Below the pieces are notes generated by a model. The model saw only the letters and a program-made list of their open reading frames with translations, was not told the origin of the DNA and made no database searches. This document shows, in pieces, positions 29,906 to 35,847 of a stretch of DNA of 64,000 nucleotides. The stretch covers positions 4,774,001 through 4,838,000 of the forward strand of contig NZ_JQMO01000003.1 of assembly GCF_000744785.1 (NCBI RefSeq). The letters are read 5' to 3'. Numbering within the stretch: the first letter of the stretch is position 1; the number at the start of each line of letters is the position of its first letter. The stretch is from Kitasatospora azatica KCTC 9699 (GTDB lineage Bacteria > Actinomycetota > Actinomycetes > Streptomycetales > Streptomycetaceae). Made by a program: the position numbers and the translations under genes.

Positions 29906-31396
29906 ATGACGAGCCCCACCGACACCTCTGTCAGCACCACCCCGCAGGTCGCGGTCAACGACATCGGCGACGCGGAAGCGTTCCTCGCGGCGATCGACGA
30001 GACCATCAAGTACTTCAACGATGGCGACATCGTTGAGGGCATCATCGTGAAGGTCGACCGTGACGAGGTGCTCCTCGACATCGGTTACAAGACCGAGGGT
30101 GTCATCCCCTCCCGCGAGCTCTCGATCAAGCACGACGTCGACCCGCACGAGGTCGTCAAGGTCGGCGACGAGATCGAGGCCCTGGTTCTCCAGAAGGAGG
30201 ACAAGGAGGGTCGTCTGATCCTGTCCAAGAAGCGCGCGCAGTACGAGCGCGCCTGGGGCACGATCGAGAAGATCAAGGAAGAGGACGGGATCGTCACCGG
30301 TACCGTCATCGAGGTCGTCAAGGGTGGTCTCATCCTCGACATCGGCCTCCGCGGCTTCCTCCCGGCCTCGCTGGTCGAGATGCGCCGCGTGCGCGACCTG
30401 CAGCCCTACGTGGGCAAGGAGCTCGAGGCCAAGATCATCGAGCTGGACAAGAACCGCAACAACGTGGTCCTGTCCCGCCGTGCCTGGCTGGAGCAGACCC
30501 AGAGCGAGGTCCGCCAGACCTTCCTCACCACCCTGCAGAAGGGCCAGGTGCGCTCCGGCGTCGTCTCCTCGATCGTCAACTTCGGTGCCTTCGTGGACCT
30601 GGGCGGCGTCGACGGTCTCGTCCACGTCTCCGAGCTGTCCTGGAAGCACATCGACCACCCGTCCGAGGTTGTCGAGGTCGGCCAGGAGGTCACCGTCGAG
30701 GTTCTCGACGTTGACATGGACCGCGAGCGCGTCTCCCTGTCGCTGAAGGCGACCCAGGAGGACCCGTGGCAGCAGTTCGCCCGGACCCACCAGATCGGTC
30801 AGGTCGTCCCGGGTAAGGTCACCAAGCTGGTTCCGTTCGGTGCGTTCGTCCGCGTGGACGAGGGCATCGAGGGCCTGGTCCACATCTCCGAGCTGGCCGA
30901 GCGCCACGTCGAGATCCCGGAGCAGGTCGTCCAGGTCGGCGACGAGATCTTCGTCAAGGTCATCGACATCGACCTCGAGCGTCGCCGCATCAGCCTCTCG
31001 CTGAAGCAGGCCAACGAGGCCCTGGGTGCCAACCCGGCCGAGGTCGAGTTCGACCCGACCCTGTACGGCATGGCTGCCTCCTACGACGACGCGGGCAACT
31101 ACATCTACCCGGAGGGCTTCGACCCCGAGGCGAACGACTGGCTGCCCGGCTTCGAGAAGCAGCGTGAGGAGTGGGAGCGCCAGTACGCCGAGGCGCAGGC
31201 CCGCTTCGAGCAGCACCAGGCCCAGGTCATCAAGAGCCGCGAGGCCGACGCCGAGGCCGCTGCCGAGGGTGGCGACGCTGTTGCCGCCGCTGCCGGTGGC
31301 TCCTACTCGTCCTCCAGCGACGAGGGCTCCGGCGCTCTCGCCTCGGACGAGGCGCTGGCTGCCCTGCGCGAGAAGCTGGCCGGCGGCCAGAGCTGA
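29906..31396 (+). CDS. rpsA: 30S ribosomal protein S1
   Basis: A 496-residue ribosomal protein that binds mRNA during initiation. Four S1 (OB-fold) domains follow one another at about residues 40-110, 125-190, 210-280 and 295-365; the signature GAFVDLGGVDGLVHVSELSW is in the third. This is the four-repeat actinobacterial form rather than the six-repeat Escherichia form. The tail (about 400-496) is charged and then Ser/Ala/Gly-rich. Codon choice, with regular GTC, AAG and GAG, fits high expression. The gene has its own promoter and terminator. Confidence 0.97.
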   Translation: MTSPTDTSVSTTPQVAVNDIGDAEAFLAAIDETIKYFNDGDIVEGIIVKVDRDEVLLDIGYKTEGVIPSRELSIKHDVDPHEVVKVGDEIEALVLQKEDKEGRLILSKKRAQYERAWGTIEKIKEEDGIVTGTVIEVVKGGLILDIGLRGFLPASLVEMRRVRDLQPYVGKELEAKIIELDKNRNNVVLSRRAWLEQTQSEVRQTFLTTLQKGQVRSGVVSSIVNFGAFVDLGGVDGLVHVSELSWKHIDHPSEVVEVGQEVTVEVLDVDMDRERVSLSLKATQEDPWQQFARTHQIGQVVPGKVTKLVPFGAFVRVDEGIEGLVHISELAERHVEIPEQVVQVGDEIFVKVIDIDLERRRISLSLKQANEALGANPAEVEFDPTLYGMAASYDDAGNYIYPEGFDPEANDWLPGFEKQREEWERQYAEAQARFEQHQAQVIKSREADAEAAAEGGDAVAAAAGGSYSSSSDEGSGALASDEALAALREKLAGGQS

Positions 31397-31699
31397 AACG
31401 CGTAGTGCTGTGAGGCACTGAGCTGGAACACAGGTCCCCACCCGGTCTCCGGGTGGGGACCTGTGGCGTTTCCTGTGGCGTTTCCGGTGACAACTCCTGT
31501 CGCGTTTCCGGTGGTGTTTGCTGCCGGTTGCGGCGCGCGCACTCCGTGTTCGTGTGCGGATCGTCCCTGTTCAACTGCGGAAAGCTTTGTGACCAGGGGC
31601 TCACTGCGTTTTTATGGGTCTTTTAGGACAGAACACCTAGCTTGGGATGAGTTGCCCGACGGGCTCTCCCCGTCCCGAACGCTAGGCAGACACCGCTTG
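31397..31699. other. Spacer after rpsA: terminator, imperfect repeats, MMPL leader
   Basis: After the rpsA terminator come three imperfect copies of a CTGTGGCGTTTCC-like unit (about 31461-31530), then an AT-richer stretch with TTTTTATGGGTC. No gene is seen; the frame here only extends the MMPL protein artificially with AFPV repeats. Confidence 0.55.
31429..31465 (+). terminator. rpsA terminator
   Basis: A 17-bp perfect stem (31429-31445 with 31449-31465) with a three-base loop lies 33 bp after the rpsA stop. Confidence 0.92.
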
Positions 31700-33913
31700 A
31701 TGCGCCTCCTTGCCGCTCCTCCCACCACCCCCGCCGCCGCTCCCGGCCGGCTCGCCGCCCTCGGGCGGGCCTGCCGTCGCCACCGGCGCTGGGTGCTGGC
31801 GTTCTGGGTGACCGTCCTCGCGCTGGGCGTGCTGATCGGGGGCCGGGTCTTCGAGGGCTCGGTCGCCCACACCGCCTCCGGGGGCGCCGAATCCGCCAAG
31901 GGCACCGCCGTGGTCGCCGCCGCCGACCCCTCGGCGGGCAGCATCACCGCCGTGGTCAGCGGCGAGCCGGTGGACACCTCCGCGGTGCGCGACGCCGTCA
32001 CCGGCACCGCCCAGGACGTCGCCAAGCTGCCCGGCGTGCTCTCGGTGGCCGACGCCTACCAGGGCGGCGCCGGGGCGAGCGCGCTGCGGTCGGCCGACGG
32101 CAACGCGAGCCTGGTCTCGGTGCGGATGGCCGACGGGGCCACCAGCAAGCAGCAGGACGCGGTCGGCCAGCGCCTCGCGGCCCTGCACGCGCCCGGCACC
32201 CAGGTGACCGTCGGCGGGGACCTGGTGGTCCAGCAGGAGGTCAAGGCGCAGACCCAGTCCGACACCACCTTCGGCGAGATCGTCACGCTGCCGCTCACCC
32301 TGGTGGTGATGGTGCTGGTCTTCGGCGGGCTCGCGGCGGCCAGCCTGCCGGTGATCGGCGCGGTCGCCTCGGTCGGTGGCGCGCTGCTGGCCATGTTCGG
32401 GTTCAGCCGGATCATGGACCTGGACACCTCGGTCCTGCCGATCGCCACCGTGCTGGGCCTGGGGCTGTCGATCGACTACGCGCTGCTGATGGTCAACCGG
32501 TTCCGGGAGGAACGCGGCCGCGGCGCGGAGATCGCCGCCGCCATCGAACGCACCACCGCCACCGCCGGCCGCACCGTGGCCTTCTCCGGGCTGACCGTGG
32601 CGGTCGCGCTGAGTGGGCTCTTCGTCTTCACCAGCCCGGTCTTCCGGGCCGTCGCGGCCGCCGGGGTCAGCGTGGTGGTGATCGCGGTGCTCGCCGCGCT
32701 CACCCTGGTGCCCGCGCTGCTCGGCTTCGCCGGGCACCGGATCAAGCCGCCCAAGCACCGCGAGCCCGACGAGGGCTTCTTCGCCTGCACCGTGCGCCTG
32801 GTGCAGCGCCGGGCGGTGCCGGTCGCGCTGGTCTGCGTGGCGCTGCTGATGGCCGCCGGCGCCCCCTTCCTGAGCGCCCAGATGCGCAGCACCGGAGCGG
32901 CCGCGCTGCCCAGCGGCTCGGCGGGCCGGCAGGTCGCCGAGATGGTGCAGCAGCGCTTCCCGCAGACCGCTGCGGCGCCGGTGACCGTGGTGGTGCAGGG
33001 CAGTGAGCAGGCCGCCGAGCAGTACGCCGACCAGGTGGTGGCCAAGCTGCCCGGGGTGGCCGGGGTACGGGCGGTGCAGCCGGTGAGTGCGCAGCTGAGC
33101 ACCGTCGAGGTGCTGGTGCACGGTGATCCGCAGGGCGCGCAGGCCAAACGGGTGGTGGGCGAGCTGCGGGAGCACCGGGGCGGGCTGAACACCTATGTGA
33201 CCGGGGACGCGGCGAGCGTGGTCGACTTCCAGCACGAGCTGAGCAGTCGTGGGCCGTGGGCGCTGGGGCTGGTCGCGGTCGGGACGCTGGTGCTGCTCTT
33301 CCTGATGACCGGCTCGGTGGTGATGCCCGTCAAGGCGCTGCTGATGAACCTGCTCTCGCTGGGGTGTTCGCTCGGCGCGCTGACCCTGGTCTTCCAGCAC
33401 GGCTGGTTCGCCGGGCTGCTCGGCTTCACCCCGACCGGGGGGTTGGAGACCTTCATCCCGGTGCTGGTCTTCGCCTTCGCCTTCGGTCTCTCGATGGACT
33501 ACGAGGTCTTCCTGCTGGCCCGGATCAAGGAGCTGCGGGACCAGGGGTACGGCTGTCGCGAGGCGGTCCAACTCGGCCTGCAACGCAGCGGGAGGATCAT
33601 CACCTCGGCGGCGCTGCTGATGGTGATCGTCTTCGCCGGGTTCGCGGCCGGGCAGATGCTGATGGTCAAGGAGATGGGCATCGCGCTGGCGGTGGCCGTC
33701 GCGGTGGACGCGACGCTGGTGCGCTGTCTGCTGGTCCCGGCCGCGATGTCCTTCTTCGGCGAGTTCAACTGGTGGGCGCCGGCGCCGCTGCGCCGGCTGT
33801 ACGCCAGGTTCGGGCTGCGCGAGCACGTGGCGCTGCCGCCGCTGGAGGAGGAGACCCCGACGGTGAGCGTGCCGGCGCCGCGCAGCCCGGTGGCGGAGCT
33901 CGCTACTCGTTGA
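31700..33913 (+). CDS. MMPL family RND transporter
   Basis: A 737-residue membrane protein of the MMPL group, exporting lipids, peptides or drugs using the proton gradient. It has a first helix at about residues 33-53, an extracellular domain, and two bundles of helices each with the MMPL signature: GLSIDYALLMVNRFREE in the first and GLSMDYEVFLLARIKE in the second. The ATG is placed where the family begins; no strong ribosome site is seen. The 3' end overlaps the convergent gene for a very small secreted peptide by 11 bp. Cargo unknown. Confidence 0.9.
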   Translation: MRLLAAPPTTPAAAPGRLAALGRACRRHRRWVLAFWVTVLALGVLIGGRVFEGSVAHTASGGAESAKGTAVVAAADPSAGSITAVVSGEPVDTSAVRDAVTGTAQDVAKLPGVLSVADAYQGGAGASALRSADGNASLVSVRMADGATSKQQDAVGQRLAALHAPGTQVTVGGDLVVQQEVKAQTQSDTTFGEIVTLPLTLVVMVLVFGGLAAASLPVIGAVASVGGALLAMFGFSRIMDLDTSVLPIATVLGLGLSIDYALLMVNRFREERGRGAEIAAAIERTTATAGRTVAFSGLTVAVALSGLFVFTSPVFRAVAAAGVSVVVIAVLAALTLVPALLGFAGHRIKPPKHREPDEGFFACTVRLVQRRAVPVALVCVALLMAAGAPFLSAQMRSTGAAALPSGSAGRQVAEMVQQRFPQTAAAPVTVVVQGSEQAAEQYADQVVAKLPGVAGVRAVQPVSAQLSTVEVLVHGDPQGAQAKRVVGELREHRGGLNTYVTGDAASVVDFQHELSSRGPWALGLVAVGTLVLLFLMTGSVVMPVKALLMNLLSLGCSLGALTLVFQHGWFAGLLGFTPTGGLETFIPVLVFAFAFGLSMDYEVFLLARIKELRDQGYGCREAVQLGLQRSGRIITSAALLMVIVFAGFAAGQMLMVKEMGIALAVAVAVDATLVRCLLVPAAMSFFGEFNWWAPAPLRRLYARFGLREHVALPPLEEETPTVSVPAPRSPVAELATR

Positions 33914-34049
33914 CGCAGGCGTTGCCGAAGCCCGAGTTCAGCGCCCCGCCGAGGTTGGCGGTGTCGCAGGCCGCCGCGGCGCCCGCACCGGCCAGGATCA
34001 GGCCGCACAGGGCGGCGGCGACGAGCAGCGAGTTGCGCAGGGTGGTCAC
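33903..34049 (-). CDS. Very small secreted cysteine-containing peptide
   Basis: A 48-residue open frame: a GTG start with AAGGA in front, a short Arg-containing start (TTLRNS), a hydrophobic signal core (LLVAAALCGLILAGAG) and AAAA before a mature part of about 20 residues that begins CDTANLGGALNS and ends GFGNACVNE. It therefore looks like an exported peptide with two Cys able to form a disulphide. The end recalls the PAFGNTCVN end of chaplins, but the rest of a chaplin domain is missing. It overlaps the MMPL gene end by 11 bp. Confidence 0.65.
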   Translation of the reverse strand: MTTLRNSLLVAAALCGLILAGAGAAAACDTANLGGALNSGFGNACVNE

Positions 34050-34115
34050 GGCGGGTCCTTAGAGCTCAGGGGGGACGGTGCGCCCTGCTCAACGCGTGAC
34101 GGGGGCAAAGGTGTC

Positions 34116-34538
34116 TCAGGCGAGTCGGCGCAGCAGCTGCACGGCCTGGTGCAGGGTGAGCTGCTCCTCAGGGGAGAGGTCGCGGCTGATCGTGGTGGCG
34201 AGCCGGTTCTCCCGACGGGTGCGCTGGTCGTGCAGGGTGGCCACGCCCGCCTCGGTGGCGTGCAGCACGAGCTTGCGGCCGTCGGTGGGGTGCGGCTGCT
34301 GGCCGATCAGGCCGGCCTGGAGCAGCTGGTGCACCGTGCGGGCCATCGACTGGTGCCGCACCCGCTGGCGCTCGGCCAGCTCGGCGGTGGTGTGCGGGCC
34401 CTCGCGGACCAGCCAGCCCAGTGCTCCCAGCTGCGGCTGCGGCAGCACCGAGTCGGCCGCGCGGACGTGGCGGACCAGCTCGCCCAGGGCGGCGCGCAGT
34501 TCGGCGGCCAGCAGCAGTGGGTCGATCTCGGTGGTCAT
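34116..34538 (-). CDS. MarR family transcriptional regulator
   Basis: A 140-residue winged-helix dimeric repressor. The recognition region reads TTAELAERQRVRHQSMARTVHQLLQAGLI and the wing is HPTDGRKLVLHATEAG, both standard for MarR. It is divergent from a metallo-hydrolase gene with 67 bp between starts, and that spacer carries a perfect CTGTAG-TC-CTACAG palindrome, a plausible operator for both. The inducer is unknown. Confidence 0.92.
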   Translation of the reverse strand: MTTEIDPLLLAAELRAALGELVRHVRAADSVLPQPQLGALGWLVREGPHTTAELAERQRVRHQSMARTVHQLLQAGLIGQQPHPTDGRKLVLHATEAGVATLHDQRTRRENRLATTISRDLSPEEQLTLHQAVQLLRRLA

Positions 34539-34605: not shown

Positions 34606-35250
34606 ATGCGACTGACCAAGTTCGGACATGCCTGCGTACGGATCGAACAGAACGGGACGACCGTGGTCATCGACCCCGGGATGTTCACCGAACCCGAGGC
34701 GACCCGGGGCGCCGACGCCCTGCTCATCACCCACGAGCACGCCGACCACTTCGCCGAGGACCGGATCCGCGCGGCCCTGGAGGCCAACCCCGGCCTGAAG
34801 ATCTGGACCAACCGCGCGGTGGCCGACCAGCTGACCGGCCTCGGCGGCGCGGTCACCGTGGTGGGCGCCGGGGACGCCTTCGAGGTCGGCGGGATCGACG
34901 TCTCGGTGCACGGCGAATGGCACGCCGAGATCCACCGCGACGTGCCGCTGGTGCGCAACATCGGCTTCCTGCTGGGCGGGACGCTCTTCCACCCCGGCGA
35001 CGCGCTCACCGTGCCCGAGCAGCCGGTGCAGACCCTGCTGGTGCCGCTCTCCTCGCCCTGGAACAAGATCGGCGAGCTGGTCGACTACATCCGCGAGGTC
35101 AAGCCCGGGCAGGCAGTGGGCATCCACGACGTGCTGCTCAGCGAGATCGGCCTCGGGCTCGGCGGCTGGTTGAGCCAGGACCAGCCGGGCACCGGGGCGC
35201 CGTACGCGCACCTGGCCTCGGGTGAGTCGCTGGAACTGGCGGCCGAGTAG
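34606..35250 (+). CDS. MBL-fold metallo-hydrolase (UlaG-like)
   Basis: A 214-residue metal-dependent hydrolase. The metallo-beta-lactamase motif is THEHADHF (HxHxDH); later ligand positions are HGEWHAEIH and the FHPGDAL Asp. The short fold without extra domains resembles UlaG-like proteins. The substrate is unknown. The ATG directly follows CTTTTCCC, with no purine-rich ribosome site. The gene is divergent from a MarR regulator and precedes coaE by nine bases. Confidence 0.9.
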   Translation: MRLTKFGHACVRIEQNGTTVVIDPGMFTEPEATRGADALLITHEHADHFAEDRIRAALEANPGLKIWTNRAVADQLTGLGGAVTVVGAGDAFEVGGIDVSVHGEWHAEIHRDVPLVRNIGFLLGGTLFHPGDALTVPEQPVQTLLVPLSSPWNKIGELVDYIREVKPGQAVGIHDVLLSEIGLGLGGWLSQDQPGTGAPYAHLASGESLELAAE

Positions 35251-35259
35251 TCTGCCGCC

Positions 35260-35847
35260 ATGCGGAAGATCGGACTGACGGGCGGAATCGGAGCCGGCAA
35301 GAGCGCGGTCTCCCAGCTGCTGGCCTCCTACGGGGCGGTGCTGGTCGACTCCGACCTGCTCGCCCGCGAGGTGGTGGCCCCGGGCACTCCCGGACTCGCG
35401 GCCGTGGTCGAGGAGTTCGGCCCGGGGGTGCTCGGCCCGGACGGTGCACTGGACCGCCCGGCCCTCGGCGCGATCGTCTTCGCCGACCCGGCGCGACTCC
35501 AGGCGCTGAACGCGATCGTGCACCCGCTGGTCCGGGCCCGCTCCGCCGAACTCGAGGCGGCCGCCGCACCCGACGCCGTGGTGGTGCACGACGTGCCGCT
35601 GCTCGCCGAGAACGGCCTCGCCCCGCTCTACGACCGGGTGATCGTGGTCGACGCGAGCGAGCAGGTCCGGCTCGACCGCCTGGTGCGGCTGCGCGGCATG
35701 GCCGAGCAGGAGGCGCGGGCCCGGATGGCCGCCCAGGCCACCCGCGAGCAGCGGCTCGCCGTCGCGGACTTCGTGGTGGCGAACAACGGCTCCCTGGCCG
35801 AGCTCGAACAGCAGGTCAAGGCTGTCTGGGAGCAGCTGACCGCCTAG
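35260..35847 (+). CDS. coaE: Dephospho-CoA kinase
   Basis: A 195-residue enzyme for the last step of coenzyme A synthesis, phosphorylating the 3'-hydroxyl of dephospho-CoA. The P-loop GGIGAGKS spans residues 8-15, followed by [11 protein letters not shown], the [10 protein letters not shown] segment and the lid region [23 protein letters not shown]. This is the short form without the extra C-terminal domain found in mycobacteria. It follows the metallo-hydrolase by nine bases. The stop codon lies in a sequence shared with the end of the methyltransferase gene at 58.1 kb. Confidence 0.95.

Follow-up and report, generated by a model that had tools for sequence, protein, structure and literature searches.

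The minus strand of the window, the whole 64,000-nucleotide stretch of DNA that was analysed, carries a small gene for a secreted-looking peptide that is chaplin-related in sequence. Comparison with related genomes confirms that the frame at 33903-34049 is a real gene, beyond a chance frame. Judged from its sequence, the product is a stand-alone "half-chaplin" that falls outside the chaplin family in its present definition. Chaplins are the proteins that make aerial filaments water-repellent. The gene and its parts are located as follows.

33903..34049, minus strand: half-chaplin peptide gene; 48 codons plus TAG stop, GTG start; 24 of 70 genomes of the genus
33969..34049, minus strand: signal-like leader MTTLRNSLLVAAALCGLILAGAGAAAA, residues 1-27, with A-x-A ahead of the cysteine
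33906..33968, minus strand: mature part CDTANLGGALNSGFGNACVNE, 21 residues, C-X16-C, resembling the last ~20 chaplin positions
34056..34060, minus strand: ribosome site AAGGA, 6 nt before the GTG, read from the sequence; similar sites in relatives

The frame encodes MTTLRNSLLVAAALCGLILAGAGAAAACDTANLGGALNSGFGNACVNE, 48 aa. Its strand, length, GTG start and sequence are as claimed in an earlier, sequence-only reading of this DNA, and the ribosome site proposed there is present as AAGGA 6 nt ahead of the GTG. The signal-like start described in that reading was also recovered, but the mature part, given as 20 residues, has 21 when counted from the cysteine. In an AlphaFold2 model of the peptide one helix runs through the leader, and the mature part has a pLDDT of about 50. 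Searches of solved structures gave no sequence match to the peptide and searches of RNA families no match at E <= 0.1. A match to an NCBIfam lectin family was rejected as chance (14.7 bits, with a cut-off of 200).

A single-sequence search of 70 Kitasatospora genomes found a full-length match in 24 of them (E <= 1.3e-5), the next match having an E-value of 0.0055. With a profile built from 18 members the same 24 were recovered at E <= 2.9e-16, followed by a next best of 2.6e-6. Absence of the frame from relatives, which the first reading held would speak against the gene, was thus searched for, and the peptide was found in these 24. In both genus searches a clean score gap separates the half-chaplin peptides from full chaplins: eight loci among the weaker matches (E 2.6e-6 and above), representing six distinct places, are ordinary full chaplins. 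A ninth weak match, L131, covers residues 10-41 only and, as it stops at residue 41, is without the second cysteine. Family-wide, scoring the best 17 candidates in each of 394 genomes, at least 26 were positive, namely the 24 of the genus and two from a second genus, of which 14 genomes were covered. In a class-wide sample, again of 394 genomes and the best 17 candidates each, only the window's genome was positive among the candidates scored; weak copies could be missed by either search. Both cysteines are kept in all 26 members and A-x-A precedes the first one in 25, in line with the earlier description of a two-cysteine, secreted-looking peptide.

The pattern of substitution points the same way in most clades. 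The dN/dS of the mature part is 0.18, 0.42 and 0.04 in three clades and 0.83 in a fourth, which has 3 pairs only; for the signal part it ranges from 0.42 to 0.94 within clades and is 0.91 over all pairs. Across all 325 pairs, where synonymous change is probably compressed by GC bias, the mature part reaches 0.99. Variable sites of the mature part are mostly third codon positions in four of six groups, the exceptions being A2 and E, which have few changes. The peptide is absent from 46 of the 70 genus genomes in the profile search and is hence not essential. In a midpoint-rooted tree built on MarR together with MMPL, with 24 carriers and 18 non-carriers, read irrespective of support values, carriers lie on both sides of the root and four parsimony changes are needed, which fits an old gene that was lost several times. 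We also considered that the frame is a decayed chaplin remnant or a spurious, functionless frame, for which its small size, its absence from most relatives and the dN/dS near 1 over all pairs could be cited. The low dN/dS in three of four clades, the occurrence of carriers in both deep branches of the genus, and the fixed cysteine spacing, ribosome site and upstream element found in 26 members make this highly improbable.

The leader has n-, h- and c-regions of a secretion signal, as judged by eye. In L012, L015 and L016 an apparent shared insertion, very roughly 15-20 residues long, lies in the N-terminal leader before the hydrophobic stretch. As the first cysteine stands exactly at the predicted cleavage site, the peptide might instead be a small lipopeptide, with this residue as a lipidated lipobox cysteine, the peptide anchored in the membrane, and the second cysteine free or dimerised. 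A loose Gram-positive lipobox, by a pattern which we take to be the usual one, fits 22 of the 26 members. Four members break even this loose pattern, one has a Thr inserted before the cysteine, and the strict lipobox (L/V/I at -3) occurs in none of the 26, compared with A-x-A in 25. These counts favour a signal peptidase I cut before the cysteine over lipidation. The cysteine moreover matches an internal cysteine of chaplins, and we regard lipidation as quite unlikely.

The first reading had pointed to a chaplin-like ending; profile comparison with scrambled controls extends this likeness to the complete chaplin cysteine loop. Against a leaderless profile of genus chaplins the peptides score 8.1 to 21.9 bits, whereas scrambled loops with both cysteines and the tail kept have means of -0.7 to 3.2 bits. 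For 25 of the 26 members the real score was reached by none of 200 scrambled loops, and for L028 by one of 200. One pairwise profile-profile comparison matched the peptides to the genus chaplins with a probability of 95.9 over 21 columns. When 3082 open segments, taken from the window and from 18 non-carrier loci, were scored with the genus chaplin profile, the window peptide came first (15.5 bits; next 6.3). The mature parts of the members are C-X16-C in 26 of 26 cases, compared with C-X17-C in all 28 distinct chaplin loops drawn from 20 chaplin regions of the genus. The GFGN-x-C-V end is short, and the peptide may have converged on it from some other sequence with a leader.

With the Pfam chaplin model PF03777 the window peptide scores 13.1 bits against a threshold of 21, aligned to positions 39-57 of 57, and only 3 of 18 members are matched at E <= 10. 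In a scan of its whole genome the peptide's Pfam score of 12.8 is at chance level, another frame reaching 13.2. Since the peptide is below the threshold and the first half of the domain is absent, it is a half-chaplin and not a chaplin by family definition. The same genome has seven chaplin domain matches over threshold, at 78-103 bits. At G000:C3:5348150-5349181 (L170, L175, L176) a two-domain chaplin frame lies next to a short chaplin, and the genome has two further chaplin sites. The loop of the peptides is less hydrophobic than the chaplin loop (mean GRAVY 0.32 vs 0.61) and is without its beta-branched VDVIGLL stretch, so that amyloid formation is doubtful.

Upstream of the gene two short elements with a putative promoter role were found.

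34082..34095, minus strand: upstream element GCGTTGAGCAGGGC with a -10-like CGTTG (34090-34094), in 26 of 26 members
34110-34115, minus strand: GACACC, a possible -35

In each of the 26 members CGTTG or CGTTA stands before a CAGG-like stretch, with the consensus GCGTTGNGCAGGGC, about 43-119 nt ahead of the matched stretch and, in the window, 44 nt before the GTG. Because the alignment rows were anchored on the CGTTG/CGTTA pattern, only the flanking columns are independent; these show C at -1 in 26, G at -2 in 25 and C at -18 in 25 of the 26. The element is also present at the two non-syntenic copies, which lie in unrelated loci. It looks like a promoter core, and a promoter of its own probably drives the peptide gene. 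Upstream of several chaplin genes of the genus, GCAACC is followed after 16-17 nt by CGTTG, an arrangement that presumably resembles sigma-BldN promoters. CGTTG is thus common to the peptide and several chaplin upstream regions, at similar spacing, but the -35 differs (GCAACC vs GACACC/CATGCC), and the peptide's motif matrix scores at most 2.0 bits in chaplin upstream regions, compared with 12.6-36.3 at the peptide's own sites. In consequence, a sigma-BldN-type promoter for the peptide is a hint only, taken from these motifs; BldN is reported to drive the chaplins (PMC4255298, PMC4125116). A regulon defined by GCGTTGNGCAGG was rejected: the string has 35 copies in the own genome, 29 of the 30 examined (the peptide's own copy excluded) fall in likely coding frames, and five other genomes have many copies too.

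The surrounding genes are the following.

29906-31396: rpsA, named from sequence
31463..33913, plus strand: MMPL transporter gene, convergent neighbour outside the unit (PF03176, E 3.8e-80)
34116..34538, minus strand: gene of a MarR-family regulator, next upstream and co-directional (PF12802, E 1e-11)
34606-35250: metallo-beta-lactamase-fold protein gene (PF13483)
35260-35847: coaE, named from sequence

The names rpsA and coaE were given from the sequences, outside the domain scan, and are presumed. A repetitive stretch with a GTG start opens the MMPL frame; the alignments of most relatives cover ~710-780 residues only, so the true start is probably further in. In all 24 genus carriers the peptide gene has MMPL on one side, tail to tail with it, and MarR on the other, and the order rpsA, MMPL, peptide, MarR was found in all 20 carriers examined for it. 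In genome G039 (L049:2463-5200) MarR is set apart from the peptide gene by 2.7 kb with a HisKA_3/HATPase_c sensor kinase gene. The overlap with the MMPL gene noticed in the first reading exists, but it amounts to 11 nt at the tails (33903-33913) and not to an antisense gene nested in MMPL. Such nesting is ruled out by the carriers as a whole, since the tails overlap by 11-14 nt in 13 of the 24, and in the remaining 11 a gap of 3-76 nt parts them. The overlap is incidental.

The constant flanking by both genes in the 24 carriers raises the question of whether the peptide belongs to an MMPL/MarR system, as cargo, regulator or sensor of the transporter under MarR control. A MarR orthologue (E <= 6e-31) is present in 57 of the 70 genomes and the peptide in 24, leaving 33 genomes with MarR and without the peptide. 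All 18 peptide-negative relatives examined among these 33 retain MMPL and MarR, and in none of the 18 is MarR followed by a two-cysteine frame of similar shape. Conversely, at the two loci of the second genus, L091 and L092, the peptide adjoins HxlR/MFS and permease/amidase genes, and no match to MMPL, MarR or rpsA was found within 11 kb around it. At L091:4742-5492 the peptide gene is again tail to tail with a neighbour, a small HTH regulator (HxlR), beside an MFS transporter. Peptide and MMPL/MarR do not co-occur as parts of one system would, and a tie to the MMPL exporter is not supported. With at least 18 relatives having MMPL and MarR without the peptide, and two non-syntenic copies having the same upstream element, the peptide gene is an autonomous unit that probably does not require the MarR gene. 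Considering also the kinase gene that parts it from MarR in one genome, and its own conserved upstream element, membership in an MMPL/MarR system is very improbable.

What might such a unit do? In our working model, to which we give an even chance, the peptide is secreted, closed by a disulphide, and takes part in chaplin assembly on the surface of the hyphae or tunes it. The leader would be cut at A-x-A just ahead of the first cysteine, the two cysteines would form an extracellular ring of 18 residues, and the peptide would reach the cell surface or the air-water interface. There its chaplin-like C-terminal face could add to, seed or cap chaplin assemblies: a peptide with a single half may bind to a chaplin fibril or film and leave it unextended, or may seed it, and surface tension or fibril growth would be altered during aerial development. 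Partners exist, as the own genome has ordinary chaplins. One paper reportedly refers in its title to dual amyloid domains in chaplins. Chaplins are described as assembling into a hydrophobic coat, with the short chaplins ChpE and ChpH lowering surface tension (PMC5618241), and as thought to co-assemble (PMC3079736, PMC5618249, PMC5618241).

The lower hydrophobicity and the missing beta-branched run favour a modulator over a fibril builder. A more specific version is that the half-chaplin serves specifically to modulate the amyloid coat of chaplins; it has kept the C-terminal docking face, has lost the other half of the domain, and caps fibrils or keeps films soft; it would then be a genetically encoded chain-terminator, old in Kitasatospora and lost several times. 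This version is tentative and, in our estimate, rather unlikely. Equally doubtful is that the peptide acts away from the coat, as an extracellular signalling or antimicrobial peptide in which a disulphide-ringed, chaplin-like loop was borrowed or kept and is recognised by a receptor or directed at competitors. A mature part of 21-23 residues with one possible ring, the patchy presence in 24 of 70 genomes, a loop body that varies more than the GFGN-x-C end and the loss of the beta-rich chaplin stretch would all suit such a role. However, no conserved receptor, immunity or modification gene is adjacent, the neighbours being the rpsA, MMPL and MarR set and, at the two other sites, unrelated genes, and the mature peptide has a neutral or acidic net charge, from 0 to -2, unlike most membrane-active antimicrobials.

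For the preferred role in chaplin assembly, the cysteines deserve attention. Reportedly, loss of the ChpH cysteines harms aerial growth in vivo, while fibrils in vitro need no cysteines (PMC3079736, PMC5618249), so that the role of chaplin cysteines, needed in vivo and not for fibrils in vitro, is considered open (PMC5618249). The half-chaplin suggests that a chaplin's cysteine loop can occur by itself in secreted form, and it offers a natural minimal peptide for probing the loop apart from the rest of the chaplin domain. The excerpts of the chaplin literature that were found do not name a "mini-chaplin", a "truncated chaplin" or such a peptide.

Among known systems the closest are the short chaplins (ChpD-H type, PF03777 ChpA-C), which like the peptide have an A-x-A leader and a small hydrophobic mature part with two cysteines, and end in F-G-N-x-C-V/I-N. 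The peptide differs in corresponding to the last third of the domain only, in a ring that is one residue shorter (X16 vs X17), in being without the N-terminal half and the VDVIGLL stretch, and in scoring below the family threshold. The early surfactant chaplins ChpE and ChpH act at an interface, the site of action also proposed for the peptide, and some structure has been predicted in their last ~20 residues (PMC3079736). However, ChpE is without cysteines, ChpH has the whole domain, and neither is 21 residues long. SapB-type morphogenetic peptides are, as predicted for the half-chaplin, very short and secreted. SapB is a modified lanthipeptide, whereas the half-chaplin has a signal-type leader and no modification gene in its conserved neighbourhood. 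SapB is also described as a peptide that may intercalate in the chaplin film (PMC5618241).
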